NCBI GenBank assembly: GCA_003136215.1
Contig: PLDO01000526.1
Span: 1-38,590 of the forward strand
Direction of reading: 5' to 3'
From: Bryobacterales bacterium
GTDB taxonomy: Bacteria > Acidobacteriota > Terriglobia > Bryobacterales > Bryobacteraceae
DNA: 38,590 nucleotides
The notes beneath the pieces are model-generated. The model made no database searches and was not told where the DNA came from. It saw nothing but the letters and a program-made list of their open reading frames with translations. Shown piece by piece: positions 3,761-30,000 of this stretch. Positions within the stretch are counted from its first letter, which is position 1, and every line of letters starts with the position of its first letter. The translations under genes were made by a program, and so were the position numbers.

Positions 3761-4062
3761 TTCCCCGGGATTCGCGACTTGATCACGATTTGGTTAACCA
3801 CCTGCTTCACGCCTTTGACCTTGTGCGTGATGCTGCCCGCCTTGTCTTTCTGGGTCTGCGAATCCACGGAGCCAGAGAGCGTGACCACCCCATTTTCGAC
3901 CTTCACCTCCAGGGCGCCTCCCTTGACGATGGGGTCGCCGGCCAGTTTGATGCGGACCTGGTCGGTAATGGCGTCGTCGGTCAGTACCTTGGGGTCTTTT
4001 GCCAGGCAAACCGCCTGCATCAGGAATAGTGCGAGGAAAACGGCCAAAAGTTTATGCATCAT
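3757..4062 (-). CDS. BON-domain periplasmic protein
   Basis: This 101-residue protein has an N-terminal signal peptide (about residues 1-21, ending VCLAKD) and a single BON domain (about 30-95). It shows the typical pattern: an acidic helix DDAITDQVRIKL, then VKVENGVVTLSGSVDSQTQKDKA, ending VVNQIVI. BON domains bind phospholipid or surfaces and are found in OsmY-like and secretin-associated proteins. No transmembrane segment follows, so it is probably periplasmic. The start at 4062 lies 11 nt inside the 3' end of era, and its stop overlaps the SMP-30 start, so it is translationally coupled on both sides. Its physiological role is unknown. Confidence 0.85.
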   Translation of the reverse strand: MMHKLLAVFLALFLMQAVCLAKDPKVLTDDAITDQVRIKLAGDPIVKGGALEVKVENGVVTLSGSVDSQTQKDKAGSITHKVKGVKQVVNQIVIKSRIPGK

Positions 4063-6803: not shown

Positions 6804-6811
6804 GGCGGGCC

Positions 6812-7882: not shown

Positions 7883-8003
7883 CAAGTGGGTGTTGGATAC
7901 CTCCAAGCAGGGGAAAATCGACGACAAGGCTTACCGATCAACTGGGAAGGATTCGAAACTTCGACCGCCCGCTGGCACGGGCTGCAGAACACCATCCGCC
8001 ACC

Positions 8004-8009
8004 ATTATA
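8004..8009 (-). promoter_or_regulatory. phoH: Candidate -10 element of the phoH operon
   Basis: On the minus strand a perfect TATAAT lies about 120 nt upstream of the phoH ATG. No convincing -35 is found at 16-18 nt; the nearby TTGACG is only 8 nt upstream. This is therefore a position guess from one hexamer. It is the only such box between the hybrid kinase stop and phoH. Confidence 0.35.
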
Positions 8010-8272
8010 CCGCGATCCGTCAAGGCCCCGGTTGACGGAGCGCAAGGGGTCGGGCGCTGGGACACAGGTTGGGGCGGGACGGCGGATGGGGTTGGCGGAA
8101 CGAAGCCAATTTGGGGCGAAGTGGCTCGCGTCCGAGCTTCGCTCGGATGGACAAGGCAGAGCCTTATCCCACTTTGAGGATAGAAGAGGGATTTGGGGGG
8201 TTCGGGAGTGGAGGGCTGTAAGTGGTTGGAAACAGGCTGACAATATCGGCAGTGTTTGTAAAATGCTGCTAC
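8010..8272. other. Intergenic region between hybrid kinase and phoH, with twin hairpins
   Basis: No credible gene was seen here. The region holds two adjacent palindromes: TCCGAGC-TTC-GCTCGGA (8131-8147) and AAGGC-AGA-GCCTT (8153-8165). They lie downstream of the hybrid kinase stop on the minus strand, but no T-tract follows, so an intrinsic terminator is not supported. The paired hairpins look more like a dispersed palindromic element. No second copy occurs in this window. Confidence 0.5.
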
Positions 8273-11200: not shown

Positions 11201-11464
11201 CAATTGACGCCAGAGCGGATAGCCCTCGGTACTCAATGAAGCCAGCGAGCCGGCGAACACAGCGGGCCAGTATTTGAGCCCGCCCATCAGCAACGCGGCC
11301 AGCGCGAGGCCGCTGGGCAGCCATAAGACGGAGACGCTACCTTTGATGGAAAGGTTGTCCGATGTCCAGATGGCAAGAAACAGGTAGAGCAGCGCCAGAC
11401 CCGCCAGCCTGGGCAGATCGGACCAGCGGTAGAGGCGGCTAATGGCCTGAGTGGATCTCGTCAT
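8273..11464 (-). CDS. MASE1-PAS-PAS-PAS hybrid histidine kinase with C-terminal receiver
   Basis: This 1063-residue membrane sensor starts with a multi-pass MASE1-type region (about 1-300, VLWLPSGLALAALL pattern). Three PAS/PAC modules follow (about 305-430, 435-555 and 560-690), each ending in a DITERK-like PAC motif. The HisKA domain has phospho-accepting H700 in GGVAHDFNNLL. An HATPase_c domain carries the N box (NLVVNARDAM), DSGVGM and GTGLGLAMV. A C-terminal receiver has phospho-acceptor D993 (VVTDVVMPN) and a conserved KPF lysine. The hybrid layout implies internal phosphotransfer or feedback to an unlinked partner; the ligand is unknown. It starts 18 nt after the aldo/keto reductase stop, so the two are probably co-transcribed. 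Confidence 0.93.
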   Translation of the reverse strand: MTRSTQAISRLYRWSDLPRLAGLALLYLFLAIWTSDNLSIKGSVSVLWLPSGLALAALLMGGLKYWPAVFAGSLASLSTEGYPLWRQLGLASGNTLEALIGAWLLLRSHRFQVALMHAEDYLRIFLAGTAGTCASALTGVGTLLLAGRIAPPAVAGSLLHWYQGDILSILLLTPTILVWRRLPGGWFTRMRVVETIACFGLAALLGQITFVGWGQSVFGRPPLGHLAFLFVTWGAVRFGRHGALLLVVMAALQALAGAVLGTGFFSSDPAQFNLNNLWMFLLALTIVGITLALLFHERNLSEQSLRKAEENLRLLTANLSEMVLAYDMNRSLVYANPAVEKLTGYSVASLRQEQFICWVHPEDRARMLGRWDGLFHGGAFAEEEYRLITKDGRQRWAAASWGPIFDDTGRQVGVQGSERDISDRKTTEDALRESEQRFRTLFENAGDAILITQNDLVIDCNARALDVFGCRTRDQLQGHHPYEFSPPSQPNGRDSREFATEKVTAALAGRAQCFEWVHARLDGTIFSTEVSLNGVGLGSSVILQGIVRDITERKRAEETQQRLVTAIEQAGETIVITDPAGAILYANPAFEKTTGFTCAEALGRSPSILKSGKQDTAFYRNMWAMLLAGQVWNGRFINKRKDGTLYEEEATISPVRDTAGRIINYVAVKRDITREVALEEKYRQAQKMESIGRLAGGVAHDFNNLLTVINGYSRMLLDKQDWDEPDRDSLEEIYKAGERAAGLTRQLLAFSRKQVLAPRTLDVNRVVREMRPMLARLVGEDIEVRLALHAEGGMIHADPHQLEQVVMNLVVNARDAMPGAGTLLVETANVVRDESFTPSHPDAPVGRYVMLSVSDSGVGMDETTKNRIFEPFFTTKGIGKGTGLGLAMVQGIVAQSGGHIEVESEPRLGTTFRIYLPSLESAPAGGGEPAVVPARVLRGEETVLVVEDQAEVRKYAADVLGSYGYKVIQAESASEALRLCDREPEHMDLVVTDVVMPNMSGRELADRLARRWPDIKVLFMSGYAHDAIASPGALRVGVGFIQKPFSPAQLACEVRGMLDTRSS

Positions 11465-11482: not shown

Positions 11483-12421
11483 CTATGGCAGCGGTTTGCC
11501 GGCGTGCGGCGCAAGGATGCCATCCACCTTTGTCAGATCGCCTTCGGTGAGCTTCCAACCCGCCGCACGCGCGTTCGCTTGAGCCTGTTCGGGCGACTTC
11601 GCGCCGGCGATAACGGAGGCCACCGCGGGGCGTGACGCGAGCCAGGAAAATGCAAGTTCCAGCAGCGAGTGGCCGCGCGATTCCGCGAACTCGCGAAGGC
11701 AGTCCGCAACTCTCAGGTTCTCTTCCATGAAGACCTTCGGCCCCCAGCCGGCCTCGCCGCGACTGCCGGGCGGAAGCGCCTGGCCGAGCCGGTATTTGCC
11801 GGTCAGCAGCCCGTTGGCCAGCGGGAAGTACGGAAGGAAAGCCAGCCCGAGGCGCATGCACTCAGGTAGCACGTCCGTCTCTGGTTCGCGGTGCATGAGG
11901 CTGTACTCGTTCTGCACGGCGATGAAGCGGGCGGCGCCGTGGCGCACCGCGCCGCCGGCTTCACGGATCTGCTGGGCGGAGAAGTTCGAGGCGCCGATCT
12001 CCCGCACCTTGCCCGACCTCACCAGGCCATCAAGCGCCTCGAGCGTGTCGGCAACGGGCGTGTTCGGGTCCGGGCGGTGCAGTTGGTACAAGTCGATGCG
12101 TTCCGTACCAAGGCGCCGCAACGAGTCCTCCACAGCGCGCCGGATGTAGTCAGGTTTGGCGCCCTGCCGTTGGTCGTCCAACTTGCCGCCGAACTTGGTG
12201 GCGATGACCACACGGTCCCAGCGGCCCTTTAGCGCCTGGCCGAGAAACTCCTCGCTCTGGCCGTCGCCGTAGATATCCGCGGTATCGAGGAAGTTGATGC
12301 CGGCATCCAAAGCTGAATCCACGACGCGCGCCGTCGCAGGTGCGTCGATGCGCCATCCAAAGTTGTTGCAACCCAGACCTACGACGGAAACTTCGAGCGA
12401 GCCGATTGTCCGTTTTTCCAA
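11483..12421 (-). CDS. Aldo/keto reductase
   Basis: This is an NADPH-dependent aldo/keto reductase of about 312 residues. It has the TIM-barrel signature GINFLDTADIYGDGQSE with catalytic Asp and Tyr, the Lys in VIATKFGG, and His in LYQLHRPD. The C-terminal cofactor-binding motif VIAGAKSPEQ is also present. I chose the TTG at 12421 because AAGGAGGA stands 5 nt upstream and translation then begins LEKRTIGSLEVSVVGLG, as in family members. The longer open frame to 12478 adds 19 unconserved residues. The physiological substrate is not evident. The hybrid kinase follows closely. Confidence 0.9.
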   Translation of the reverse strand: MEKRTIGSLEVSVVGLGCNNFGWRIDAPATARVVDSALDAGINFLDTADIYGDGQSEEFLGQALKGRWDRVVIATKFGGKLDDQRQGAKPDYIRRAVEDSLRRLGTERIDLYQLHRPDPNTPVADTLEALDGLVRSGKVREIGASNFSAQQIREAGGAVRHGAARFIAVQNEYSLMHREPETDVLPECMRLGLAFLPYFPLANGLLTGKYRLGQALPPGSRGEAGWGPKVFMEENLRVADCLREFAESRGHSLLELAFSWLASRPAVASVIAGAKSPEQAQANARAAGWKLTEGDLTKVDGILAPHAGKPLP

Positions 12422-12594
12422 CTGATCCTCCTTCGCGGGCCGCTGCGTTGTATTCCGTCCGGCCCACCTCACACTCATTTTCCTCTACAGTACCCGATTA
12501 GACCGGATGTTTGCAGCACGGCGATGGAAAAGTCCCATGGCGATCCTCCGGCAGAGGCAGCCTGGAAATGCACCCCGCAGGGAGGGGGGCACAA

Positions 12595-13320
12595 CTACCG
12601 GATGTTTTCAAGTCCGCCGGTCCTGGCTTCGGTGAACCTGTAGCCGAGGTGACTGTCGGTCAACAAATAGGTTGGTTCGGCAGGATCGTCTTCGAGCTTC
12701 TTTCTCAACTGACGCACGAAAGTCCGCAGATATTCCAACTCGCCCCCGTACTCAGGACCCCACACTGCATGCAGGAGCCGCGCGTGGGTAATCGGCAGAC
12801 CGGCGTGCGCCATGAGATAGTGCAACAAGTCAAACTCCGTCGGCGTAATGTGAACCGGCTCGCCGCCTTTGCGAACCACTCTGCGAGCCGGATCAAGTTC
12901 GATATTCCCAATTCGGATTACCGCGTTGGGATCGACATGGGAAGCGGACGAACGCCGCACCGCGGCCCGGATGCGCGCCGCCAGCTCGCGGATGCTGAAT
13001 GGCTTGGTAACGTAATCGTCCGCACCGGCATCGAGCGCCGTGACTTTGTCTTCCTCGCGGTCGCGCACCGTCAGCATGAGTATCCCCAGGTGGGGCATGC
13101 TCTTGCGCATCTCGCGGCACGCCCGGACACCGCCGATCCCTGGCATGTTGATGTCCATGAGAACGACATCGTATTCGGCTTCACGCACGCGATCGAGCGC
13201 GGCTTCGCCGGAAACGGCATCGTCCACCTCGAACCCCATACCGTGAAGCGTATTGTGCAGCGCGCGCCGAATCGCACTCTCGTCATCAACGATCAGAACT
13301 TTGCCGTGCGACTGACTCAT
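12595..13320 (-). CDS. KdpE-like OmpR-family response regulator (regulator 1)
   Basis: This 241-residue protein has an N-terminal receiver with phospho-acceptor D56 (VVLMDINMPG), LTVRD and KPF motifs. The C-terminal winged helix (about 135-230) is of the OmpR/PhoB class. A ribosome site, AAGGAG, lies 6 nt before the ATG, and the start overlaps the upstream kinase gene by 35 nt, marking a coupled two-component pair. The DNA-binding domain is nearly the same as that of the plus-strand regulator at 16891. The recognition region GGELEYLRTFVRQLRKKL is identical, so both may bind the same operator. KdpE controls K+ uptake in model bacteria, but no kdpFABC is present here. Confidence 0.93.
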   Translation of the reverse strand: MSQSHGKVLIVDDESAIRRALHNTLHGMGFEVDDAVSGEAALDRVREAEYDVVLMDINMPGIGGVRACREMRKSMPHLGILMLTVRDREEDKVTALDAGADDYVTKPFSIRELAARIRAAVRRSSASHVDPNAVIRIGNIELDPARRVVRKGGEPVHITPTEFDLLHYLMAHAGLPITHARLLHAVWGPEYGGELEYLRTFVRQLRKKLEDDPAEPTYLLTDSHLGYRFTEARTGGLENIR

Positions 13321-14842
13321 CCCGTCTCCTTGGGCCGCGTGGCAGCGCGAAGAAGAACGTGGTACCGGCTGCTTCTTCGCTCACTACCCAGGTGCGGCCG
13401 CCATGGGCTTCAGCGGCCTTTCTTGCAATGGAAAGGCCGAGTCCGGTGCCCGACGCCCGATGCCCCGATCCTTCGGCTCGATAAAACCGTTCGAATATCC
13501 GCTCCCGATCCGCCGCCTGGATGGGCGGACCCTGATTGTGAACACCGATGACAATCTCCCCCAGGTTTTCCTCGGCTGTGACGGAAACGGGAGATCCGGG
13601 CGCCGAATACTTGGCCGCGTTGTCGATGAACTGCTCCAGCGCCGCCGCCAGTATCTTGCGGTCGCCGTAGACCTCCAGATCAGCCGCGCGATCGGCCACG
13701 GTCACGCGCCGGCCCTGCAACTGTTCGCGATACCGGGCAAGGACGTTTTCAACCAGCGTGAGTACCCCTACGCGCTCCCGCCGGAGGGTGACTTCGGCGG
13801 CGTCGATTCTCGCCATCTGCAGGAGTTCGGACGTCAGACGATTCAGGTGCTCCGCCTGCTCGTCGATCAGCGCCGCCAGTTCGGCGTCATCCGTGGACAG
13901 GCGCCCAGCTTCCAGCAGTCCCGAGCTTGCGGTCCGTATCGCCGTCAGCGGCGACTTGACTGAATGTGCGAGGGCGTCCAGTACCGCCGTTCGCAGCTGC
14001 TCGGTCTGGCGCGCCGCTTCAGCTCCGCTTTCTTTTTCGAAGGAACGCGCGCGCTCCAGTGCAATCGCCGCCAAGGATGCGATCGATACGATGGTGAGCC
14101 GTTCCACTTCCGGGCCGCAGAGCGCGAGTCCGCCGGCCGGCCTCGATCCCAGCCGCAGCACGTGCGCCCACGCGCGCGTATCGGCCCCTTCCAGCGTTCT
14201 ATCTTGGAAACAGGCACTCCGCGCGAGTTGTTCGAGATCGTTTGCGTGGGAACCGATGGCATCCATACGAGCCGAATCGGCGTCGAACAGGGCCACGGAT
14301 TCGGTTCCGAAGATCTCATGAATCAGAGACACGATCTGCGGCCCGATCGTTTGGCGACGATCCAACAGCAGGATGCGGCGGCTCAGCTCGTACAGCTTCT
14401 GGACCTCCACCCGCTGCCGCGCCTCCGCTCGTGCCTGGTCCTGCGCACGCGTGGAGAGGCGGCTCACCGTCAGTGCGGTGATCTCGAAGGCGGCGAGAGC
14501 AACCCAGTTCTGCGGATCCGACACCGTCCAGGTGAACACTGGAGGGACAAAGAAGTAATTCAGGCAATTCACCGCGATCAGCGAGGTAACACTGCCTTCC
14601 CAGAAACCCCAGATCACCGAAACCATCACCACAATCAGGAAGTAGAGGGACCCGGAAGTAGAGAGGTTCAGATTCAGCCGCAGCCCGCAGACGGTCACCA
14701 GGCCAACCGCCGTCAGCCCGGCCAGGCATCCGCGCAGAATCCCTAATCGAGATCGCACGGGTTCCCAATAGCGCATCCGGCTATTCATCCTGGCCCCGAC
14801 TTTCGGTTCGGCGGCGATGCCGGGAGCGAGTTCAGCTTTCAC
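13286..14842 (-). CDS. KdpD C-terminus-like sensor histidine kinase (DUF4118-GAF-HisKA-HATPase)
   Basis: This membrane sensor kinase has 518 residues. It has four hydrophobic segments of the KdpD/DUF4118 type (about 30-140, including NYFFVPPVFTW), a GAF-like region (about 150-265), and a HisKA domain with H293 (ALAHSVKSPLTAI). The HATPase_c domain contains FIDNAAKYS, FERFYR and GTGLGLSIARK. It lacks the KdpD N-terminal sensor ATPase and Usp domains, so it corresponds only to the C-terminal half of E. coli KdpD. The start at 14842 is GTG; an ATG at 14788 (MNSRMRYWEP) is an alternative. It is coupled to regulator 1 and lies 84 nt downstream of the VWFA gene on the same strand. Confidence 0.9.
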   Translation of the reverse strand: MKAELAPGIAAEPKVGARMNSRMRYWEPVRSRLGILRGCLAGLTAVGLVTVCGLRLNLNLSTSGSLYFLIVVMVSVIWGFWEGSVTSLIAVNCLNYFFVPPVFTWTVSDPQNWVALAAFEITALTVSRLSTRAQDQARAEARQRVEVQKLYELSRRILLLDRRQTIGPQIVSLIHEIFGTESVALFDADSARMDAIGSHANDLEQLARSACFQDRTLEGADTRAWAHVLRLGSRPAGGLALCGPEVERLTIVSIASLAAIALERARSFEKESGAEAARQTEQLRTAVLDALAHSVKSPLTAIRTASSGLLEAGRLSTDDAELAALIDEQAEHLNRLTSELLQMARIDAAEVTLRRERVGVLTLVENVLARYREQLQGRRVTVADRAADLEVYGDRKILAAALEQFIDNAAKYSAPGSPVSVTAEENLGEIVIGVHNQGPPIQAADRERIFERFYRAEGSGHRASGTGLGLSIARKAAEAHGGRTWVVSEEAAGTTFFFALPRGPRRRDESVARQSSDR

Positions 14843-16890: not shown

Positions 16891-17658
16891 ATGACACGAG
16901 AAGAATCCAATACCGATCAGCCGCCCGAGCACGAAAACGGCATAAAGGGGAAACTGCTGATCGTGGACGACGAGGCGGCGATCCGCTGGGCGCTGCGGAG
17001 AACCCTGCAGCGCATGAACTTTGAAATCGCCGAGGCTGAGACCGGCGAGCAGGCGATCGCGCTGATTCGCACGGTTCGCTTTGACGCCGTGCTGCTGGAC
17101 ATCTCCATGCCAGGTATGAATGGCATCGAGGCATGTAGAAGGCTGCGTAAACTGATGCCCATGCTCGGGATTGTGATGCTGACGGTGAGAAACGCCGAAG
17201 AGGACAAGATTCAGGCGCTTGACGCGGGTGCGGACGACTACATCACGAAACCCTTTCACGTCGGGGAGTTGGCGGCACGGCTTCGCGCTGTCGTGCGCCG
17301 CGCCTACGCGTCCCAGACGGACGAGGCCGCCGCCATCAGGATCGGAGACGTCGAACTGGACCCCGCCCGGCGGCTGGTGCGGAGGGCGGGAACGCCGATT
17401 CACGTGACGCCCAAGGAATTCGAGCTGCTTCATTTCCTGATGTCGCACGCCGGTCTGCCTCTCACGCACGCGCGAATTCTGGCAGCGGTCTGGGGACCGG
17501 AGTATGGAGGCGAACTGGAGTATCTCCGAACATTTGTCCGGCAACTAAGGAAGAAACTCGGCGACGATGCCGCCTCTCCGAAGTACCTTCTCACCGATTC
17601 TCAGGTTGGCTACCGCTTCAGAGCGGGGGCTGATATGGCGCCCGGAGGGCTGGCGTGA
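16891..17658 (+). CDS. KdpE-like OmpR-family response regulator (regulator 2)
   Basis: This 255-residue response regulator has a receiver with D70 (AVLLDISMPG), the LTVRN and KPFHVGE motifs, and an OmpR-type winged helix. The effector domain is closely similar to regulator 1: an identical GGELEYLRTFVRQLRKKL and the same GPEYGG turn. The paralogues thus arose by duplication and may share targets and the kinase at 13286. No kinase gene adjoins it on this strand. Its promoter carries box site 2, and site 3 lies 23 nt after its stop, ahead of the porin-efflux genes. I infer that it controls that operon and itself. Confidence 0.93.
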   Translation: MTREESNTDQPPEHENGIKGKLLIVDDEAAIRWALRRTLQRMNFEIAEAETGEQAIALIRTVRFDAVLLDISMPGMNGIEACRRLRKLMPMLGIVMLTVRNAEEDKIQALDAGADDYITKPFHVGELAARLRAVVRRAYASQTDEAAAIRIGDVELDPARRLVRRAGTPIHVTPKEFELLHFLMSHAGLPLTHARILAAVWGPEYGGELEYLRTFVRQLRKKLGDDAASPKYLLTDSQVGYRFRAGADMAPGGLA

Positions 17659-17910: not shown

Positions 17911-19869
17911 ATGACTCGCAACTTACTACTTTTCGCCGTAGTGCCATCCTGCATCGCAATGCAACTTACAGTGGCTACCATCACCGCTTCCGGGCAGGAG
18001 GTTTCAGGCGGTGTTGGCGGAGTAACCCGGGACTCCACCAGTAAACAACCGTTGGCGCAGGTGCGAATTACCGCGCACAGCGTAAGGAAAGGCACGGACC
18101 GAACCGCAATCAGCGGCCCGGATGGCGCCTTCGCCGTACTGGCCCTCGAACCGGGACTCTACCAGGTTGCGGCGGCGAAAGAGGGATTCACCGAATCGAC
18201 GACTAACGTGTATGTGGCCACGCCAAGGCCCTACCGGGTCGATCTCCTGCTGGCGGCTGACAACCCGCCGGCTCCGGCAGCGAAGACCTCTCCCGCGCCA
18301 GCCGATTCAACCACGACAGCGGTCGAGGAGGAGCTCGCCGCGCTGAAACTGCGCATTGAGCAACTCGAGGCGGCGCTACACGCTCGCGCGGCTGCGACGC
18401 CCGCGGAAACTGCCGCGGCGGCGCCTTCGCCTTCCGCTGCGCCCGCTCCGCAACCAACGGCGGCGGCCCCCGCGCCACCGGCGCATGTCCTTCCGGAAGC
18501 CCTGGAGGCTCCTGACGCCACCACCGGAGTGGACAACTTCACCCCGTTCGCGTTTGGCGACTTTACCTGGCTCAACGGTACGCCGCGCAACAAAGACACC
18601 GTGCTGGATACGAAGTTCTTCACTCCGGAAGTCCGCTTCGACACCCACTATATGGTGGACTTTAATCAACCGGTTGACCACACCATGGGGGGATCCACCG
18701 AGTCCTTCCGGTCCGGCGAGTTCCAGGAGGAGCAGATCAGCGTGGGTGGCGATTTCCATTGGCAGAATGTGCGAGGCCGCGTACTGTATATGAACGGATT
18801 GTTCGCCACCACCACGCCGCGCAATGACGGCAGCGCCGGCGTCGGCCAATGGGACCTCCGCAACGCTTACCGCTACGTCTCCGAAGCTTGGGGCGGTTAC
18901 CACTTCAACGTGAGCCATGGCCTCAACGTCGATGCCGGGATTTTTGTGTCGTACATTGGCCTGTTCAGTTACTATAACTTCGATAACTGGACGTATCAGC
19001 CGTCGTTCGTGTCGTCCAATACGCCATGGTTCTTCAATGGCCTGCGGATTCAGTGGTTCCCCACCAAGAAGCTGAAAATCGAGCCCTGGATCATCAACGG
19101 ATGGCAGTCTTACGCGAAGTTCAATGGGCACCATGGCTTGGGAGGCCAAATCTTATACCGCCCGCACGAGTGGCTTTCGCTGGTGTTCAACAACTACGGC
19201 AATGGTACGGATACGTTGGGCAACCCGGGCCGGTCCCGCATCCACACCGATGACAGCGTCGAAGTGAGGTATTACAACAAGCCGGACCAGGATAAGGGCG
19301 TCAGCAAAATGGCGTTCTCCTTCACCGCCGACGCGGGCTGTGAATACGGTGGTGGGGTAACTTGCCACGGGGGCAAGGGCGGCCCGAAGCAGGACTTCCT
19401 GGGTTGGATGGTCTACAACCGGATTTGGTTGAACAAGGACAAGTTTGCAGTTACGCTCGGCGGCGGCCAGATGACCAACCCGGGCCGCTATCTGACGCTG
19501 CTGCCTCCCATCAATGGAGCCGACGCCATCTCCGGTTCGCCCTACTTCACAGCGAATCCCGGGGACAAGGCCCACATGTGGGACTCCACGATTACGCTTC
19601 ACTATATGCCCAAACAGTACATCACATGGTGGGCGGAGGCCGGATACCGGCATTCCGACGTTCCCTATTGGTCCGGCCGCGGCGGCATCACCCCTCCCGG
19701 CGGAAATAACGGCTCGCCCGCGCAATACGTCTGCGCCAGCGGCGCCCCGTCCGGTGCAAACGACCTCCCGACGGCAACTGCGAATTGCGGCGGACCCGGC
19801 AGTGTCTGGTTCCCCGATCTTCGTCGCGGCCAGGCCACCTTCAGCCTCGGCGTCATGGTCAAGTTCTGA
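17911..19869 (+). CDS. OmpL-like outer-membrane beta-barrel porin with N-terminal regulatory-like domain
   Basis: This outer-membrane protein has 652 residues. The start is the ATG at 17911, with AAAGGA 5-10 nt upstream and a signal peptide (1-29, ending TASGQ); the frame stays open back to 17698, but that start would lie within the promoter box. Residues 30-115 form a carboxypeptidase-regulatory-like beta-sandwich (DGAFAVLALEPGLYQVAAAKEG). Residues 135-160 are a short coiled coil, followed by an Ala/Pro linker to about 200. From 210 to the end is a BBP2/OmpL-like barrel ending GVMVKF, with the terminal Phe expected for barrel assembly. The coiled coil may trimerise the protein or span the periplasm. 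It heads the efflux operon and sits 31 nt before the adaptor gene. Confidence 0.85.
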   Translation: MTRNLLLFAVVPSCIAMQLTVATITASGQEVSGGVGGVTRDSTSKQPLAQVRITAHSVRKGTDRTAISGPDGAFAVLALEPGLYQVAAAKEGFTESTTNVYVATPRPYRVDLLLAADNPPAPAAKTSPAPADSTTTAVEEELAALKLRIEQLEAALHARAAATPAETAAAAPSPSAAPAPQPTAAAPAPPAHVLPEALEAPDATTGVDNFTPFAFGDFTWLNGTPRNKDTVLDTKFFTPEVRFDTHYMVDFNQPVDHTMGGSTESFRSGEFQEEQISVGGDFHWQNVRGRVLYMNGLFATTTPRNDGSAGVGQWDLRNAYRYVSEAWGGYHFNVSHGLNVDAGIFVSYIGLFSYYNFDNWTYQPSFVSSNTPWFFNGLRIQWFPTKKLKIEPWIINGWQSYAKFNGHHGLGGQILYRPHEWLSLVFNNYGNGTDTLGNPGRSRIHTDDSVEVRYYNKPDQDKGVSKMAFSFTADAGCEYGGGVTCHGGKGGPKQDFLGWMVYNRIWLNKDKFAVTLGGGQMTNPGRYLTLLPPINGADAISGSPYFTANPGDKAHMWDSTITLHYMPKQYITWWAEAGYRHSDVPYWSGRGGITPPGGNNGSPAQYVCASGAPSGANDLPTATANCGGPGSVWFPDLRRGQATFSLGVMVKF

Positions 19870-19900
19870 AACAACCAGTTCGAACGGATAGGAGTCTCTT

Positions 19901-21043
19901 ATGAAAAACAACGTCTTGAAGATTGGTCTTCTCCTGGCACTCGTCCCGGCGGCGCTGCTGCTCGACGGCTGTCAGGGAATGCGGGCGGACACTAAGGAGG
20001 AAGCGCCGCCCGCGGCGAAGATCGTCCCCGGATTCGATGTTAGTGTTTTCTCGGTGGAACATCCGGAGCAGTTCCCGGTGGCCACGGCGACGGCGCAGGC
20101 CACGGCGCCGGAGTTGGTGGTCACCGGCACGGTGAATCCCGACATCTCCCGCAACGTCCCGGTGATTTCGCTCGCCTCCGGGCGCGTCGTCTCCATTCAG
20201 GCGCGGCTCGGCGACACCGTGAGCAAGGGCCAGTTGCTGCTCACCGTTCGTAGCGACGACATCTCCGGAGCCTTCGGGAATTACCGGAAGGCCGTGGCGG
20301 ACGAAGTCCTGGCGCGCACCCAGTTGGAGCGCGCCAAGGACCTGCACCTCCACGGCGCCATCGCCCTGAACGATCTTCAGGTCGCCCAGGACACCGAAGA
20401 TAAGGCCAAGGTGGACGTGGAAACCATGTCGGAGCATCTCCGCCTCTTGGGCAACGACCCCGATCGCCCCAATGGCATGGTCGATATCTTTGCGCCGGTA
20501 TCCGGAGTCATCACCGACCAGCAGGTGACCACCGCTGCGGGCGTGCAGAGCCTGACTACCAATCCTTTCACTATCTCCGACCTTTCCAGCGTCTGGATCG
20601 TCTGCGATGTCTATGAGAACGACCTGCCCAACGTGCACATTGGCGACACCGCCGAGATCCGCCTGAACGCCTACCCCGACCGCGTGCTCAGGGGATCGGC
20701 CAGCAACATCGGCGCTATCCTCGATCCGAACATCCGCACTGCCAAAATTCGAATCGAGGTGGCCAATCCGGGCATTATGCGCCTGGGCATGTTCGTCACC
20801 GCCACCTTCCGTGGCCTAACGAAGGAGGTGCACACGGTGGTGCCGGCATCGGCCATCCTCCATCTGCACGACCGCGACTGGGTCTACGTGCCGGCGCCGG
20901 ACAAGAAGTTCCGGCGTGTCGAGGTAGTCGGCGGCGATCCCCTGCCGGGCAACCTCCAGCAGATCAAGTCTGGCATAAAACCGGCCCAGCAAGTGATCGC
21001 CAACGCCGTGGTCCTCGAGCACGTAATAGCGATCAGCCAATAA
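19901..21043 (+). CDS. RND efflux periplasmic adaptor (HlyD/CusB-like)
   Basis: This 380-residue membrane-fusion protein would link the RND pump to the outer-membrane factor. The N-terminal signal ends LLLDGC at about residue 24, a probable but atypical lipobox with Asp at -2. A lipoyl-like half (SLASGRVVSIQARLGDTVSKGQLLLTV), a short alpha-hairpin (about 125-180) and the second lipoyl half (DIFAPVSGVI) follow. A beta-barrel domain contains VWIVCDVYENDLPNVHIGD, and a membrane-proximal domain completes it. This order matches CusB/CzcB-type adaptors. AGGAG stands 8 nt before the ATG. The short hairpin suggests CzcB/CusB rather than AcrA class. No metal-binding Met/His cluster is obvious at the N-terminus, so the substrate is uncertain. 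Confidence 0.93.
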   Translation: MKNNVLKIGLLLALVPAALLLDGCQGMRADTKEEAPPAAKIVPGFDVSVFSVEHPEQFPVATATAQATAPELVVTGTVNPDISRNVPVISLASGRVVSIQARLGDTVSKGQLLLTVRSDDISGAFGNYRKAVADEVLARTQLERAKDLHLHGAIALNDLQVAQDTEDKAKVDVETMSEHLRLLGNDPDRPNGMVDIFAPVSGVITDQQVTTAAGVQSLTTNPFTISDLSSVWIVCDVYENDLPNVHIGDTAEIRLNAYPDRVLRGSASNIGAILDPNIRTAKIRIEVANPGIMRLGMFVTATFRGLTKEVHTVVPASAILHLHDRDWVYVPAPDKKFRRVEVVGGDPLPGNLQQIKSGIKPAQQVIANAVVLEHVIAISQ

Positions 21044-21086
21044 GTACCACTACATACCGCCTCGCACTCTCGCTCGGATAACTCAA

Positions 21087-24000
21087 ATGATTCGTGCCCT
21101 GGTAGATTTTGCGCTCAACAACCGGTTCGTCGTCATCGCGATTGTTGTGCTGTTAACGGCGTGGGGTGTCGTGTCCTTTCACAACCTGCCGGTGGAGGCA
21201 TATCCGGACATCGCCGACAACTATGTGACGGTGATTACGCAGTGGCCCGGACGGTCCGCGGAGGAGGTGGAACAGCAGGTCACGATTCCGGTGGAAATCC
21301 AGATGAACGGGATCCCCCACCTGCAGTTCCTGCGCTCTGAATCGATCTTCGGTCTGTCGTACGTGATCATGATCTTCGACGACAGCTCGGTCAACGACTG
21401 GAACCGGCAGAAGGTACTGGAGAGGCTCACGCAGGTGAACTTACCCTCCGGGCTGCAATCGCAAATTGGCACGGACTGGAGCACCGTTGGTCAGATCTAC
21501 TGGTACACGCTGCGCAGCACCAATCCGAGATACGACCTGATGGAGCTCCGGTCTATTGAAGATTGGACGCTGCTCAAAGAGTTCAAGTCCGTTCCGAACG
21601 TGGTGGATGTCTCCGATTTCGGGGGAGCGGTCCGGGAATACCAGGTGCGCGTGGACCCTAACAAGCTGGTGTCCTACGGCTTGAGCATCGGCCAGGTGGA
21701 GCAGCAACTCTCCAGCAACAATATCAACGCCGGCGGCAGCTTCGTGGAGACGGGCCTGCAGCAGATGAACGTCCGCACGCTCGGCCTTTTCGGCAATGTC
21801 AGCGACATCGAGCAGACCGTCCTGAAGACGCAGAAAGGGACCGCCCTGCGGGTGAAGGACATCGCCGAGGTGGCGCAAGGCCCCAAGATTCGTCTGGGCC
21901 ACATGGCCAGGGCTAACCACATGGAGGACGGACACATCGTCGACGAACCCGACGTCATTCAGGGCGTCGTGCTGATGCGCAAAGGCGCCGACGCGGGGCC
22001 CACGCTGGAGGGCATCCACAAGAAGGTGGAAGAGCTCAATAACGGCATCCTGCCTCCCGGCGTGAAGGTAGTTCCCATGCTGGATCGCGCCGATCTCCTG
22101 CGCTATACCCTGCACACGGTGATGCACAACCTGGGTGAAGGCATGATCCTGGTGACCATCGTGCTTCTGCTGTTCCTGGGCAATATCCGCGCCGCTTTGA
22201 TCGTGGCCCTCACGATTCCGTTCTCTTTGCTGTTCGCCTCCATCTGGCTCGACGTCAGCCATATTCCGGCCAACCTGCTTTCCCTCGGTGCGCTCGATTT
22301 CGGCATGGTGGTGGATGGCGCGGTGGTCATGGTGGAGAACACCGTTCGCCACATCAATCGAAACAGTGCGGCCACGTCCCCGAGACCCGTCACCCAGGTG
22401 ATCCGCGACGCTACCCACGAGGTGCAGCGCCCGGTGTTCTACGCCATCGCCATCATCATCACCGCGTACCTGCCCATCTTCACGCTGCAGCGCGTGGAGG
22501 GCCGGCTATTCCGGCCCATGGCGCTGACCGTCGCCTTCGCGCTGCTGGGCGCGCTACTATTTTCCATCCTCATCGCGCCGGTCCTGTCCAGCGTGTTCTT
22601 CCGCAGGGGAGCTCGCGAATGGCACAACCCGGTGGTGGCCTTTTTGACCGCTCGTTATCGAAGCAATCTGCGCTGGGCGATCGGGCATCGTTGGATCACG
22701 CTGGGCGTTGGACTTGTCGCCCTCGGCGCATCGGCATACCTGGCGTTCAGCGGGGTCATTGGTTCGGAGTTCCTGCCGCACCTGGACGAAGGCGCCATCT
22801 GGGCTCGCGGCACTCTGGCCGACAGCACCAACCTCACCGAGGGCACCCGGTTCGCCGATCAGTGCCGCCTGGTTTTCGCCGCCTTTCCAGAGGTCACCAA
22901 GGTGGTGTCCGAAGTGGGACGGCCCGACGACGGCACCGACACCGGGGGATTCGGCAATACCGAGTATTTCGTGGATCTCAACCCAAAGGAGCAGTGGCGG
23001 CCCGTGTTCCATCGGGACAAAGAAGAACTGATCGCCGCCATGAGCCGCGAACTCGAAAAATTTCCCGGCGCCCTTTGGAATTTCTCCCAGCCCATCGAAG
23101 ATAACGTGGGCGAGACCGTGACCGGCACAAAAGGTCAACTGGCGCTCAAACTATTCGGCAAGGATCTGAGGACGCTCGACGACAAGGGCGACGAAGTCAC
23201 CGCCGCCATGGCGCGCGTGCCCGGCCTCAAGGACCTCAAGTTCTTTCACACTCTCGGCCAGCCGAATCTGAACTTCACCATCGATCGAATGCAGGCGGCC
23301 CGGTTTCAAATCAATGTGGCCGACATACAAGACGCCATTCAGACGGCTGTGGGCGGCAACGCTGTCAGCCAGGTACTGCTCGGCGAAGAGCGATATGACG
23401 TGGTGGTGCGATACCAGGCGGCGTATCGCGACACCCAGAAGGCGATCGCCAATGTCCGCCTGCTCTCCCCGTCCGGCGAACGCGTATCGCTGGCACAGCT
23501 AACCAAAGTGGCGGTCAAAGACGGCGCCTATGACATCTACCGCGAAGGCAACAGCCGCTACGCCGCCATTACGTTCAACGTGCGAGGCCGCGATCTGGGA
23601 AGCACCGTGGCGGACGCCATGAAGCAGGTCCAGCAGAAGGTGAAGCTGCCGCAAGGCTATCACCTCGAGTGGTCCGGAGAGTACGAAAGCGAAAAGCGGG
23701 CGGAAGCGCGGCTGCTGATCGTCGTTCCGCTGACCATTCTGTTGATCGTCATCATTCTTTACACCATGTTCCGTTCCTTCAAATGGGCCATGCTCATTCT
23801 GGTCAACGTGGTACTCGCCCGCGTAGGCGGTTTGCTGGCGCTCCTGGTCACCCACACCAATTTCAGCGTGTCTTCGGGCGTCGGCTTTCTGGCGCTGTTC
23901 GGCGTTTCCGTACAAACCGGGGTGATCATGCTCGAATACATCAACCAGCGCCGCGCGCGCGGCCACACCATCGTGGACGCCGCCGTGGAGGGCGCAGTTC

Positions 24001-24230
24001 TCCGCCTTCGTCCGATCATGATGACCATGCTGGTGGCGACGCTGGGCTTGCTGCCTGCCGCGCTGTCGCACGATATCGGCTCCGACTCGCAGCGGCCCTT
24101 TGCCATTGTGATCGTCGGCGGCCTGATTTCCGACCTGGTGATGAGCATTGTCCTGCTGCCAACTCTGTACGTGTGGATGGCGCGGGAGGGGGACACGCTC
24201 CCCGCACCGGAGGAATCCCTTGAAAGCTAA
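21087..24230 (+). CDS. CzcA/CusA-type (heavy-metal efflux class) RND permease
   Basis: This inner-membrane proton-driven RND transporter has 1047 residues and the usual 12-helix layout with two large periplasmic loops. The opening MIRALVDFALNNRF, then LPVEAYPDIADNYV and QVTIPVEIQMNG, are typical of the CzcA/CusA class. The TM4 signature DFGMVVDGAVVMVEN gives D404, D410 and E417, the spacing of the essential acidic residues in CzcA. Many Met residues are present, but I cannot align a CusA-type Met triad by eye, so metal specificity (Co/Zn/Cd versus Cu/Ag) stays open. The gene lies 43 nt after the adaptor, and its stop overlaps the outer-membrane-factor start by 11 nt. Confidence 0.95.
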   Translation: MIRALVDFALNNRFVVIAIVVLLTAWGVVSFHNLPVEAYPDIADNYVTVITQWPGRSAEEVEQQVTIPVEIQMNGIPHLQFLRSESIFGLSYVIMIFDDSSVNDWNRQKVLERLTQVNLPSGLQSQIGTDWSTVGQIYWYTLRSTNPRYDLMELRSIEDWTLLKEFKSVPNVVDVSDFGGAVREYQVRVDPNKLVSYGLSIGQVEQQLSSNNINAGGSFVETGLQQMNVRTLGLFGNVSDIEQTVLKTQKGTALRVKDIAEVAQGPKIRLGHMARANHMEDGHIVDEPDVIQGVVLMRKGADAGPTLEGIHKKVEELNNGILPPGVKVVPMLDRADLLRYTLHTVMHNLGEGMILVTIVLLLFLGNIRAALIVALTIPFSLLFASIWLDVSHIPANLLSLGALDFGMVVDGAVVMVENTVRHINRNSAATSPRPVTQVIRDATHEVQRPVFYAIAIIITAYLPIFTLQRVEGRLFRPMALTVAFALLGALLFSILIAPVLSSVFFRRGAREWHNPVVAFLTARYRSNLRWAIGHRWITLGVGLVALGASAYLAFSGVIGSEFLPHLDEGAIWARGTLADSTNLTEGTRFADQCRLVFAAFPEVTKVVSEVGRPDDGTDTGGFGNTEYFVDLNPKEQWRPVFHRDKEELIAAMSRELEKFPGALWNFSQPIEDNVGETVTGTKGQLALKLFGKDLRTLDDKGDEVTAAMARVPGLKDLKFFHTLGQPNLNFTIDRMQAARFQINVADIQDAIQTAVGGNAVSQVLLGEERYDVVVRYQAAYRDTQKAIANVRLLSPSGERVSLAQLTKVAVKDGAYDIYREGNSRYAAITFNVRGRDLGSTVADAMKQVQQKVKLPQGYHLEWSGEYESEKRAEARLLIVVPLTILLIVIILYTMFRSFKWAMLILVNVVLARVGGLLALLVTHTNFSVSSGVGFLALFGVSVQTGVIMLEYINQRRARGHTIVDAAVEGAVLRLRPIMMTMLVATLGLLPAALSHDIGSDSQRPFAIVIVGGLISDLVMSIVLLPTLYVWMAREGDTLPAPEESLES

Positions 24231-25494
24231 CCGTTCCGTTCCGCGCGCCGCGCTGGCCTGCGCGCTGCTCTGGCATCTTGCGCTGGGGCAGACGCCTTCG
24301 GCGCCGGTCGCCGTCACCCTCGACCAGGCCATCCAGACGGCGCTGCAGCACAACCACAATCTGTTGGCCGCGCGCACCACGGTGCAGCAGAGCGAGGCGC
24401 AGGAGGTCACCGCCAATCTGCGCCCCAACCCGACGCTGTTCACCGACTGGGAATACCTGCCGCTGGTCAACCCCGGCGGCAGCCTTCTCGATTACCTCCA
24501 TAACTCCACCGAGGGCGACATCGGCTTGAGTTACCTGTTCGAACGCGGCAAGAAACGGCAGCATCGCCTTCAGGCGGCGAAGGACGCGACGGCGGTGGCC
24601 CGCTCTCAGGTAGCGGACAACGAGCGCGGCATCACGTTTCAGGTGGCCCAGCTATTCATCAATGTGCAACTTGCGCAATCCACCCTGGATCTGGCGCGGC
24701 AGGATCTAAAAAGCTACCAGGATACGGTGGACATCAGCGAAACGAAATTCAAATCCGGCGGCATCAGCGAGAACGACTTCCTGAAAATCAAACTGCAAGC
24801 GCTGCAGTTTGAGCAGGACGTTCAACAGGCGCAATTGGCGAAGACCCAGGCGCTATCGGACCTCCGCCATCTGCTGGGTTACGAATCCGTGCCCGCCGAT
24901 TATGATGTGGCGGGCGTATTCGATTACCAGCCCCTCAAGCTCACGCCCGCCGACTTGGAGGCGAAAGCCCTGGAGAATCGTCCCGACCTGCGCGCGGCCG
25001 TGCAGGGGGTTACCGCCGCCGGCAGCCAACACGAGCTCGCCAAAGCCAACGGGAAAGTGGACGTGACCGGCTCCGGCAACTATTCGCACGTCAATGGCCT
25101 CAGCGCGGTTACGTTCAGTGTGCAGATTCCGCTGGCGATTTTCGATCGCAATCAGGGCGAAATCGCGCGGACGCATTACGCCATCAATCAGGCGCAGCAC
25201 CAGCAGGCATCGGCGCGCGGGCAGGTAATGACCGACGTGCGGGACGCGTATGAGGCCCTCGAAAGCAGCGACCGGGTGGCGCAGTACTTCCGATCGGGTT
25301 ATCTCGAAGTGTCGCAGAAGAACCGCGAGATCAGCGAATATGCGTATCGGCGCGGCGCCGCGAGCCTGCTGGATTTCCTGGACGCGGAACGGAGCTATCG
25401 CGCCACGCAACTCGCCTGGCGGCAGACTATCGCCGCGTACCTGACCGCGCTGGAACAGCTTCGCGAGGCCGTGGGAACCAGGAGCCTGCCATGA
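24220..25494 (+). CDS. Outer-membrane efflux factor (TolC/CusC/CzcC-like)
   Basis: This 424-residue protein has a signal peptide (1-23, ending LALGQ) and two OEP repeats of coiled-coil helices. The helix patterns ALQHNHNLLAARTTVQQSEAQ and AKALENRPDLRAAVQG are diagnostic. It would form the trimeric outer-membrane channel of the tripartite pump. I chose TTG at 24220: GGAGGA stands 7 nt upstream, the frame begins LKANRSVPRAALACALLW, and it overlaps the pump gene end. The open frame upstream to 24148 lies within the pump gene and lacks a signal sequence. Its stop overlaps the next ATG as ATGA. Confidence 0.93.
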   Translation: MKANRSVPRAALACALLWHLALGQTPSAPVAVTLDQAIQTALQHNHNLLAARTTVQQSEAQEVTANLRPNPTLFTDWEYLPLVNPGGSLLDYLHNSTEGDIGLSYLFERGKKRQHRLQAAKDATAVARSQVADNERGITFQVAQLFINVQLAQSTLDLARQDLKSYQDTVDISETKFKSGGISENDFLKIKLQALQFEQDVQQAQLAKTQALSDLRHLLGYESVPADYDVAGVFDYQPLKLTPADLEAKALENRPDLRAAVQGVTAAGSQHELAKANGKVDVTGSGNYSHVNGLSAVTFSVQIPLAIFDRNQGEIARTHYAINQAQHQQASARGQVMTDVRDAYEALESSDRVAQYFRSGYLEVSQKNREISEYAYRRGAASLLDFLDAERSYRATQLAWRQTIAAYLTALEQLREAVGTRSLP

Positions 25495-26156
25495 CACGAG
25501 CGGAGGTCCGCACCCGCATCGAGGAGGTCGGCATCTTGCCCGCGATTCGCGTATCGTCGTCAGCCGAGGCTCTCTTCGCGGCCGAAGCGGTCTACCGTTC
25601 CGGGATCCCCACGGCTGAAATCACCATGACGACCCCTGGCGCCATCGACGTGATTTCCCGCCTGACCAGAGATTTCCCGGAGATGATTGTGGGGGCCGGC
25701 ACCGTCCTCGATGTGGACACGGCCAGCCGCTGTTTGGATGCTGGCGCGCTGTTTCTGACGAGTACCGGCTTGGTGTTGGAAGTTGTGGAGTTCGCCCTGA
25801 AGAACGATGTCGTTGTCTTTCCCGGTGCGCTGACGCCCACTGAGGTCATCGCAGCGTGGAGAGCCGGTTCCGACTTCGTCAAGGTCTTCCCGTGCTCGGC
25901 CAATGGCGGCCACAGCTACGTCAGGGCACTGAAGGTGCCCTTTCCTCAGATTCCGATGATCGCCTCGGGCGGTGTGAACCAACTCACGGCCGTTGATTTC
26001 ATCCTGGCCGGCTCGGCCGCGCTGGGCATCGGGGCGGAGTTGATGCCTCCCGAGGCTCTTCGGATACGGAACGAAAGGCAGATTCGCGAATTGGCGCGAA
26101 GGTTTCTGGGCATGGTGAAAGAGGGGCGCGCGCTGAAGACAGGAGGCAAGCCGTGA
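25491..26156 (+). CDS. eda: KDPG/KHG aldolase family protein
   Basis: This 221-residue class I aldolase belongs to the 2-dehydro-3-deoxy-phosphogluconate / 4-hydroxy-2-oxoglutarate aldolase family (Entner-Doudoroff and sugar-acid catabolism). Schiff-base lysine K131 lies in DFVKVFPCSANGG and the general acid/base E43 in AEITMTTP. GAGTVLD and ASGGVN (phosphate loop) are conserved. Family members usually read EITLRTP and FKFFPA; the differences here (ITMTTP, FVKVFPCS) suggest a divergent subfamily, perhaps with another 2-oxo acid substrate. It is coupled by ATGA to the outer-membrane-factor gene, with AGGAG 7 nt upstream. That neighbour is unusual for an aldolase. Confidence 0.85.
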   Translation: MTRAEVRTRIEEVGILPAIRVSSSAEALFAAEAVYRSGIPTAEITMTTPGAIDVISRLTRDFPEMIVGAGTVLDVDTASRCLDAGALFLTSTGLVLEVVEFALKNDVVVFPGALTPTEVIAAWRAGSDFVKVFPCSANGGHSYVRALKVPFPQIPMIASGGVNQLTAVDFILAGSAALGIGAELMPPEALRIRNERQIRELARRFLGMVKEGRALKTGGKP

Positions 26157-26887
26157 CTCGAGGACTGACGACGCTTCTCCTCGCCCTGAACGCACTGGGA
26201 GTTCTCCTCCCGGCGTTCGGCGGTGAGACGTCCGCACGGACGGTTAAGGTTGTCCAGACGGAGCGGGTGAGTTTCGCGCCCGGGGGCGTCATCCACGTGC
26301 CGCACTCTTTCGGCAGCGTAACCGTGGAAGGCTGGGACCGGCCGGAAGTCGAAGTCACAGTGGTCAAATCCCGAGAGCGCCACTACGAACCCGAGCGGCA
26401 CGAGCAGGCCGCACGCGGTCTGGAGCGCGTCCGTGTCGTCGCCGAACGGCAATCCGACAGCGAATTGACGATTTCGACCATCGCTCCCCACAAGCGATTT
26501 CCTTACTTGTGGGGCGGCAAGGGCGGCGTGAAGGTGGAATACCTGATTCATGCGCCGCACGATTCGCGGCTGGTAATCCAGCACGGCGCCGGCTATGTAT
26601 TGGTAAGCGACATGACGGGAAATGTGGAAGCCACCAGTCACAGCGGCGACATCCTGCTGATGTTGCCGGATTCGGGCACGTACTCCATAGACGCGCGATC
26701 CAAGCTCGGCGTTGTCTCTTCCGATTTTGCGGGGGCCGCCCACCGCCGGTATCTCGTGGGCTCGGGCTTCGCCCGCGCGACTTCGTCTGCATCGCACCGG
26801 ATCTATCTCCGGACGCGAATCGGCGGCATCACGATCAAGTCCGTTCCGGTGGAGGCTGAAGCGCCCGCCGGAACCCAAAACAGGTAA
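26153..26887 (+). CDS. Secreted DUF4097-like beta-helix protein
   Basis: This 244-residue protein has a signal peptide (about 1-22, ending LPAFGG) followed by beta-strand-rich sequence. The repeats HVPHSFGSVTVEGWDRPEVEVTV, RLVIQHGAGYVLVSDMTG and NVEATSHSGDILLMLPDSGTYSIDARSKLG fit the DUF4097 / putative adhesin fold, in which short strands stack as a beta-helix. The function of that family is unknown; members often sit with anti-sigma or envelope-stress genes. The GTG start at 26153 overlaps the aldolase stop (GTGA), with AGGAGG 7 nt upstream. It is therefore the last gene of the porin-efflux operon. Confidence 0.75.
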   Translation: MTRGLTTLLLALNALGVLLPAFGGETSARTVKVVQTERVSFAPGGVIHVPHSFGSVTVEGWDRPEVEVTVVKSRERHYEPERHEQAARGLERVRVVAERQSDSELTISTIAPHKRFPYLWGGKGGVKVEYLIHAPHDSRLVIQHGAGYVLVSDMTGNVEATSHSGDILLMLPDSGTYSIDARSKLGVVSSDFAGAAHRRYLVGSGFARATSSASHRIYLRTRIGGITIKSVPVEAEAPAGTQNR

Positions 26888-27558: not shown

Positions 27559-29952
27559 CTAGAAGGGGCGCGGCGCGGCCGCCTGGGGCGCCGGGCGGGA
27601 TTGCGGAGGCTCCGTCAGAGCGAAAGTCATGATGGTCGAGCCCGCCGCCATGCCGATGTACTGCCTGCCATCAACGACGTATGTCATGGGGCCGGCCTTC
27701 CAATTCTGCCCGGTATTAAAGTGCCACAGCAGTTTTCCGTTGCCGGCGTCGGCCGCGACAAACGCGCCGCCGCCGTCGCCATAGAAGATCAACCCGCCGG
27801 CGGATGCCATCAGGCCGCTCGCCAGAATTCCGCCGCCGATGTCCGGAATCTCCCAGACGGTCTTCCCGGTCTGAATATCGATGGCCTTCAGAATCTTGCC
27901 GCCGCCATCGGGCGCGCGCCGCGTGCCACCACCGTAGAACGATTTGCCCGCCTCCCACCACTGGTCGTTTTTGCTGTAGATGTTGCACGATTCCTCGGCG
28001 AACATGTAGTAGAGGCCGGTGGCCGGATTGTAGGCGCTGGACGGCCAGTTCGCCGCCCCCTCCACCGAGGGACATGTCAACTGGCCTTGCACGGACGGCT
28101 CATTGGCCGGCAGCAGAATGGGGCGTCCGTCAGGGCCGATGCCGCTGGCCCAGGTCAGCTTCCTGACGAACGGCTCCGCCAACAGCAGCTTGCCGGTGAG
28201 CCGGTCCAACACGTAAAAGAAGCCGTTGCGATTTCCATGCAGCAGAAGCTTGCGCGGCCGGCCGTGAAAATTCGCGTCCACCAGCAGCGGCGTTTCCGTG
28301 GCGTCCCAATCGTGCAGATCATGCGGCGTGAATTGGTAATACCACTTCAGTTTTCCCGTGACGGGATCGAGCGCCAGCACCGATGCCGTATAGAGGTTGT
28401 CGCCTATCCGCTCGTCGCCGTTGTAGTCCGGGCACGGATTGCCGGTGGGCCAGTAGAGCAGACGGGCTTCCGGGTCGTAGGTACCGGTGAGCCAGGTCGC
28501 GCCACAGCCGTGTTCCAATGCGCGGCCGCTCCACGTCTCCGACCCGGGCTCGCCGGGCGCTGGAATCGTCCAGAAGCGCCAAACCCGTTCGCCCGTCGAT
28601 GCCTTATATGCGTCCAGAAATCCGCGAACCCCTTCGTCTCCGCCGGAAACGCCCGCCACCACGAGGTCGTTTACCACCAGCGGCGCACTCGTGGAGCCGT
28701 AATTCTGCCGGGAATCGGCCATTTCGACGTCCCAGATGAGCTGTCCGGTAAAGCGATGCAGCGCGAACAGGTGCGCGTTATCGGAGACCATGAACACACG
28801 GTTTCCGAGCACGGCGACGCCGCGGTTGATTCCACTGGCCGCATCGCCGGCGAGCCCCTGGCTGCGCGGCCGGCGATAGTGCCAGATTTCGCGACCGTTT
28901 CGCGCATCGAGCGCGTACGCCTCATTGACCGTGGTGACGTACATCACGCCGTCCACCACGACCGGCGTCGTCTCGAGCGCGCGCGGAGCGCTGGGAATCG
29001 GAAAGATCCACTGGGGCGCCAGCCGCCGCACGTTGCCCGTATCGATCTGGTTGAGCGGGCTGAAGCGGTTGCCGGTCAGGTTGCCGTCGTAGGTCGGCCA
29101 GGAGCCCGGCTTGGGCTGCGCCACGTCGGCGAACGGTACGCCCGGTCCCAGCCCGGCCGTGGCGAGCATTGCCTTGGCATTTGGGTCGGTGGAAAGCCGG
29201 CTGAGGTAGGCGACAAGGTTGCGCATCTCCCCGGGAGTTGCTTCGACCTTCGGCATCAGCGATTTTTCGCGCACGATTTCCGCGACCTGCTCTTTCGACA
29301 GCAAATGCAGCGTGCCGTCCACCGACAGCAGTTGCAGGTCGTATGCGCTCTCGTTCTTCGCGATGCCCCGCAGTGTCTGCCCGTCTTTCAGGCGCACGGT
29401 AACCGCCCGATAGGTTGGCGCCGCTCCGCGTCCTTCGCGTCCCGGTGGGGCGGCGGAGGCAGATCCGGGTTCGCGCAGCGCCTGTTCAATCTGCGCCGGC
29501 CCGCGGTCGCGGCCGACGTTGGACAGATCGGGGCCGGGCACTCCACCGCGGCCGCGCACCATGTGACAGCTCGCGCAGTTTCCTTTTCCGAAAAAGAAAC
29601 GCTCCCCGGCCATGGAGTCGCCCGCAGCGGCGCCACCTGCTTTGACGGCGGGCTGCTTCAGGGTCATCACGTGAGCTGCAATGGCGTCCGCCTGCTCATC
29701 GGGTATTTTGAAGGCGGGCATGCCGCCATCGGGGATGCCCTTGAGAATCAGGTTGCGCACCTCCCCTTGCGACGTAGCGCGCTGGCGCCGGGCGTCCAGG
29801 AAACCCGGACCATGTCCTCCGCCCGACCCGTCCTCGCCATGACAGCTGCCGCAGAGAACCAGATATTGCCGTTTTCCGGATTCGACCGTCTGGGCAGGGG
29901 CGGCGGCTGGGTATAGGGCGATACAAATGGCGAGCGCAAGATTCCACTTCAT
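27559..29952 (-). CDS. PQQ-dependent dehydrogenase with two N-terminal cytochrome c domains
   Basis: This periplasmic quinoprotein of about 797 residues has a signal peptide (1-20, ending AAAPAQ). Two cytochrome c domains follow: CGSCH (C34, C37, H38) and CASCH (C126, C129, H130). Next is a short insert (YRAVTVRLKDGQTLRGIAKNES) seen in heme-binding domains of acidobacterial and planctomycete proteins. An eight-bladed PQQ propeller fills the rest, with W-motif strands and catalytic D550 in HDLHDWDATE. The residue two after this Asp is Thr, not the Asp that marks lanthanide-dependent (XoxF-type) enzymes, which suggests Ca2+ use. The heme-propeller order is reversed compared with quinohemoprotein alcohol dehydrogenases, whose cytochrome is C-terminal. 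The start is the ATG at 29952; a TTG at 29961 is less likely. Substrate is probably an alcohol or sugar. Confidence 0.9.
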   Translation of the reverse strand: MKWNLALAICIALYPAAAPAQTVESGKRQYLVLCGSCHGEDGSGGGHGPGFLDARRQRATSQGEVRNLILKGIPDGGMPAFKIPDEQADAIAAHVMTLKQPAVKAGGAAAGDSMAGERFFFGKGNCASCHMVRGRGGVPGPDLSNVGRDRGPAQIEQALREPGSASAAPPGREGRGAAPTYRAVTVRLKDGQTLRGIAKNESAYDLQLLSVDGTLHLLSKEQVAEIVREKSLMPKVEATPGEMRNLVAYLSRLSTDPNAKAMLATAGLGPGVPFADVAQPKPGSWPTYDGNLTGNRFSPLNQIDTGNVRRLAPQWIFPIPSAPRALETTPVVVDGVMYVTTVNEAYALDARNGREIWHYRRPRSQGLAGDAASGINRGVAVLGNRVFMVSDNAHLFALHRFTGQLIWDVEMADSRQNYGSTSAPLVVNDLVVAGVSGGDEGVRGFLDAYKASTGERVWRFWTIPAPGEPGSETWSGRALEHGCGATWLTGTYDPEARLLYWPTGNPCPDYNGDERIGDNLYTASVLALDPVTGKLKWYYQFTPHDLHDWDATETPLLVDANFHGRPRKLLLHGNRNGFFYVLDRLTGKLLLAEPFVRKLTWASGIGPDGRPILLPANEPSVQGQLTCPSVEGAANWPSSAYNPATGLYYMFAEESCNIYSKNDQWWEAGKSFYGGGTRRAPDGGGKILKAIDIQTGKTVWEIPDIGGGILASGLMASAGGLIFYGDGGGAFVAADAGNGKLLWHFNTGQNWKAGPMTYVVDGRQYIGMAAGSTIMTFALTEPPQSRPAPQAAAPRPF

Positions 29953-30000
29953 AGCAGGCAAGTGCTGATAGTCTATCCGATTTACTGCCAGCCGGCGTCA

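Follow-up and report, generated by a model that had tools for sequence, protein, structure and literature searches.

An aldolase of the KDPG/KHG family as a recurrent member of a putative metal-efflux operon in Acidobacteriota

The closest described relatives of the locus presented here are the ZneCAB and CzcCBA operons of Cupriavidus metallidurans, in which genes for an adaptor, an RND pump and an outer-membrane factor are found together with an adjoining two-component regulator, a set that our locus shares. HME pumps of this kind expel metal ions that they pick up mainly in the periplasm (PMC8277102). A different arrangement is found in the ArsJ–GAPDH pair of arsenate resistance, where the product of the enzyme is the exported compound (PMC9601151). 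For a KDPG aldolase paired with RND efflux, we found no description in the open-access literature. The operon described here, in a window of 38,590 nucleotides from a Bryobacterales bacterium (the whole stretch of DNA analysed), has such an aldolase, with the fold of the KDPG/KHG aldolase (Eda) family (e.g., Thermotoga maritima 1wa3; TM 0.85–0.94) and the same catalytic glutamate and lysine. A carbon-metabolism enzyme thus appears as a recurrent member of what is probably a metal-efflux operon in the Acidobacteria, a large and little-cultured group of soil bacteria.

Operon layout and neighbouring regulators

Six genes occupy positions 17911–26887 of the plus strand, at coordinates that a reading-frame check returned as first given; they and the nearby regulators are:

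12595..13320, minus: second KdpE-like response regulator (tblastn 67.9% over 224 aa to the regulator at 16891)
13289..14842, minus: KdpD-like sensor kinase (DUF4118-HisKA-HATPase_c by Pfam; tblastn 45% to the kinase of locus L060)
16891..17658, plus: KdpE/PhoB-type response regulator, directly upstream of the six genes (PF00072 5e-33, PF00486 1e-21)
17911..19869, plus: BBP2 (OmpL-like) beta-barrel porin (PF07642 1e-33)
within 17911..19869, plus: porin N-terminus, a CarboxypepD_reg domain (PF13620 4e-11), then a coiled-coil/Ala-Pro linker
19901..21043, plus: HlyD/CzcB periplasmic adaptor (PF16576, HlyD_D23, 3e-35; TIGR01730 5e-35)
21087..24230, plus: CusA/CzcA-family (HME) RND pump (TIGR00914 919.8 bits, cut-off 701)
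24220..25494, plus: TolC-type outer-membrane factor (PF02321, OEP, 2e-52)
25491..26156, plus: KDPG/KHG-type class I (Schiff-base) aldolase (PF01081 2e-38; TIGR01182)
26153..26887, plus: secreted DUF4097 (Toastrack) protein, signal peptide in front (PF13349)

The adaptor, probably a lipoprotein judging by its LLLDGC motif, is thus joined in one operon by an RND pump of the CusA/CzcA subfamily and an outer-membrane factor. Coordinates and profiles bear out the preliminary description of an aldolase inside an efflux operon with three overlapping junctions: 11 nt between the TTG start of TolC at 24220 and the RND stop at 24230, ATGA at 25491–25494 between TolC and the aldolase, and GTGA at 26153–26156 between the aldolase and the DUF4097 gene. 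Scans for promoters and terminators returned no more sites than in shuffled sequence.

Two functional labels given at the outset found no support. The last gene had been called adhesin-like, an identity that we dropped, as the sole match behind the signal peptide is to DUF4097, and this is weak (24.0 against a cut-off of 22.9 bits, residues 154–228 only). The porin had been proposed as a companion outer-membrane pore, a role left unsupported because complete operons come with an exit duct of the TolC type, and because the porin is missing from operons of the TolC-HlyD-RND-aldolase type. Its domain pair, PF07642 with PF13620, is also present in locus L120.

A response regulator is found in the equivalent place in loci L041/L084 and L043/L120, and a kinase of the KdpD-like family lies beside 20 of 80 related loci among the matches listed. 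The kinase at 13289..14842 possibly regulates the operon, with the regulator at 12595..13320, outside the operon itself, as its possible partner. In two loci (L106:11437-17650 and L112:7248-13520), the operon is followed directly downstream by KdpA and other genes of a Kdp-type ATPase, which fits the KdpDE-like regulators seen at other loci. Elsewhere in the window, the minus strand encodes a MASE1–multi-PAS hybrid sensor kinase with a receiver domain (8276–11464), adjoined by an aldo/keto reductase (11486–12478), and what appears by eye to be a PQQ-type quinoprotein dehydrogenase with a fused cytochrome c domain (27559–29961). Four long reading frames (449–630 aa) at 74–8032 of the plus strand have no Pfam match and are possibly spurious.

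The aldolase branch and its linkage to the pump

The aldolase passes the curated cut-offs of its family profiles (TIGR01182, 171.8 against 156.05 bits; PF01081, 132.5 against 27.8), and its AF2 model (pLDDT 96.1) has KDPG aldolases as its closest folds. The enzyme is cytosolic. Aldolases from 100 relatives fall into two groups, one mostly 53–73% identical to that of the window and the other, of housekeeping type, at no more than 48%; the efflux-linked group was picked by similarity, not by neighbours, and then aligned. In the tree, it forms an Acidobacteriota branch separate from the housekeeping aldolases (support 100/99, 82 sampled copies). The catalytic E43 and Schiff-base K131 are kept in 82/82 branch copies, so the enzyme is likely, from its sequence, to be catalytically active, while the substrate side differs. 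The branch carries the signature T90, A158, Q164 and L201, positions mostly occupied by V, P, L and R in housekeeping copies; the threonine corresponding to E. coli T161 is replaced by alanine or serine in 69/82 copies; and residue 182, aligned to a serine of the Thermotoga enzyme, is variable. We take both of the latter positions to have active-site roles. KDPG is therefore not a likely natural substrate, and the database name “KDPG aldolase” probably covers a different function in this branch. A wide spread through the phylum was considered and rejected: in 30 loci read from a 297-genome sample, the T90/A158/Q164/L201 signature was confined to the copy of the window genome itself.

Across 237 genomes from the family of the window, the branch aldolase occurs in 65 copies, of which 37 lie on the same strand as a pump of the window's branch and no more than 3 kb from it. 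This is a lower bound, since the best three pump candidates per genome were scored. Chance would place about 0.07 such pairs there, which rules out a chance neighbourhood. The pumps closest to that of the window carry the aldolase in 13 of 15 cases, and the more distant pumps of the same branch in 24 of 125; the other 101 do without it, so the aldolase is not needed for pumping as such. The two exceptions among the 15 are a genome (G432) with DUF4097 and no branch aldolase within 3 kb, and one (G394) with pump and aldolase on different contigs. Family-wide, 21 of 63 DUF4097 homologues adjoin the aldolase and 26 of 63 the pump.

The same picture emerges from a single pattern scan of 84,980 species genomes, which gave at least 80 related loci, many of them in metagenome-assembled genomes with short contigs. 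Among the matches listed, an efflux-operon gene is directly upstream in 65 of 81 aldolase copies (RND 30, TolC 24, DUF4097 5, HlyD 3, BBP2 3), with a gap of at most 100 nt in 53 of the 65. The remaining 16, some at contig ends, have no efflux gene there, and no common alternative context was found for loci without RND neighbours. In the tree set, 62 rows lie near RND, HlyD or TolC on the same strand and three more near BBP2 only, and all 62 + 3 fall inside the 82-row aldolase branch. All loci among the matches listed are titled Acidobacteriota except L080, titled Betaproteobacteria, which bears an acidobacterial TolC-HlyD-RND-aldolase operon, perhaps through mis-binning or else through transfer. 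Far from the aldolase and DUF4097 being unlinked to efflux genes in every relative, the aldolase is linked to them in dozens of genomes, and for this reason we regard the link between aldolase and pump as meaningful.

Two operon types were distinguished. Type I, that of the window, has (kinase, regulator), BBP2, HlyD, RND, TolC, aldolase and DUF4097; type II consists of TolC, HlyD and RND, and many of its 24 aldolase-linked operons place the enzyme behind RND. As to whether the six-gene order is conserved, the aldolase–pump link is kept while the position of the aldolase varies: TolC-ALD-DUF4097, RND-ALD, HlyD-ALD-RND (L087), RND-ALD-TolC (L098, in Granulicella sp. L46, whose record bears no MAG label) and a tandem RND-ALD-RND-ALD (L129:2752-10660). 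On one contig (G403:C175:4429-5803), two aldolase genes of the branch sit on opposite strands, back to back and separated by about 100 nt. The window-type pumps are monophyletic (SH-aLRT 100), but a single clade of their aldolases is rejected (AU p 6e-6), which indicates refilling of, or recombination at, the aldolase slot. Distances among pumps and among aldolases are nonetheless correlated (Mantel r 0.55; 0 of 2000 permutations as high).

Pump substrate and possible role of the aldolase

The closest solved structure to the window RND pump is ZneA (4k0e). The TM4 motif D-F-G-x-x-V-D/E-G-x-V-V-x-x-E-N is present, with D404 and E417 in 69/69 pumps and position 410 occupied by aspartate in 59 and glutamate in 10. 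D615, D618, D672 and E676, likewise invariant in 69/69, align with E599, D602, D654 and D658 of ZneA, while the position of ZneA E136 is glutamine in 65 pumps, including that of the window, and serine in four; these five residues are presumably the metal site of ZneA, a divalent-cation pump of the HME3a class. In the alignment, the window residues matching the methionine triad of CusA, M573-M623-M672 (PMC8092243), are not methionine, and a Cu(I)/Ag(I) pump of the CusA type was rejected on this basis. The four acidic residues aligned with ZneA and the missing triad together make divalent cations the likely substrate, as far as sequence can tell.

We give about an even chance to the following reading: that this is an HME-RND operon under KdpDE-type regulation, probably for a divalent metal, to which a cytosolic class I aldolase of the pyruvate type, from a dedicated branch, has been added in the Terriglobia as an accessory of the metal response. 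Rising metal would cause the regulator to induce pump, porin, DUF4097 protein and aldolase together; adaptor, RND pump and TolC would take the ion from the periplasm out of the cell; and the cytosolic aldolase, via a Schiff base on Lys131, would make or split a 4-hydroxy-2-oxo acid, serving as a stress-specific isozyme or shifting the pool of metal-binding oxo acids. Class I aldolases work without metal, and hence no direct chemical link between aldolase and metal is evident. In a bolder version, to which we assign a small chance, the trimeric aldolase is coupled to the trimeric pump and produces a 4-hydroxy-2-oxo acid (or adduct) that binds the metal and leaves the cell with it; if true, this would be a so far undescribed, metabolite-assisted mode of RND efflux. 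A possible link between oxo-acid chemistry and metal tolerance is testable.

Other readings have to be set against this one. The enzyme may be an ordinary KDPG aldolase that serves the breakdown of sugars or uronic acids and is co-expressed because plant-derived acids and metals reach peat soil together, for which the family fold, the catalytic residues and the many loci from peat and soil genomes can be cited. We consider this unlikely: an Edd above the TIGR01196 cut-off is absent from all 20 branch-bearing genomes searched (weaker dehydratase paralogues only; 2 of 14 control genomes pass), so that an Entner-Doudoroff role was rejected as improbable on sequence grounds; most of the 20 carry another aldolase elsewhere; no sugar-acid genes were identified next to the branch aldolase in the loci examined; and the changes at the T161 position and residue 182 point the same way. 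That the aldolase is a passenger metabolic gene, held in the operon by chance and shared descent, would accord with the low share of linked distant pumps and with branch copies located elsewhere, yet it is improbable given a linkage some 500 times over chance in many genera, one that survives several changes of gene order and a refilling of the window-type slot by another aldolase lineage.

The pump might instead export an organic acid or related metabolite that the cytosolic aldolase makes or clears, much as the preliminary description proposed for a 2-oxo acid. Enzymes linked to pumps often act on the pump substrate, and in ArsJ with GAPDH an exporter is already known to be accompanied by an enzyme of central metabolism (PMC9601151). 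The idea that the built-in aldolase is meaningful stands; the export role itself we judge rather unlikely, since the pump belongs to the HME type and its conserved acidic residues, which line up with ZneA, point to divalent cations, and since such pumps move metal ions drawn mainly from the periplasm (PMC8277102), whereas the aldolase is cytosolic.

Comparison with known systems

Compared with ZneCAB and CzcCBA, the window operon adds an aldolase, a DUF4097 protein and a BBP2 porin, and its regulator is KdpDE-type, while its pump keeps four acidic residues of ZneA. Within the Eda family, the aldolase stands as a separate branch with changed substrate-side positions, linked to efflux genes and not to sugar-acid genes. 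In the ArsJ–GAPDH pair, too, the gene for an enzyme of central metabolism adjoins that of a toxic-ion exporter, but both exporter family and enzyme differ from those of the window.
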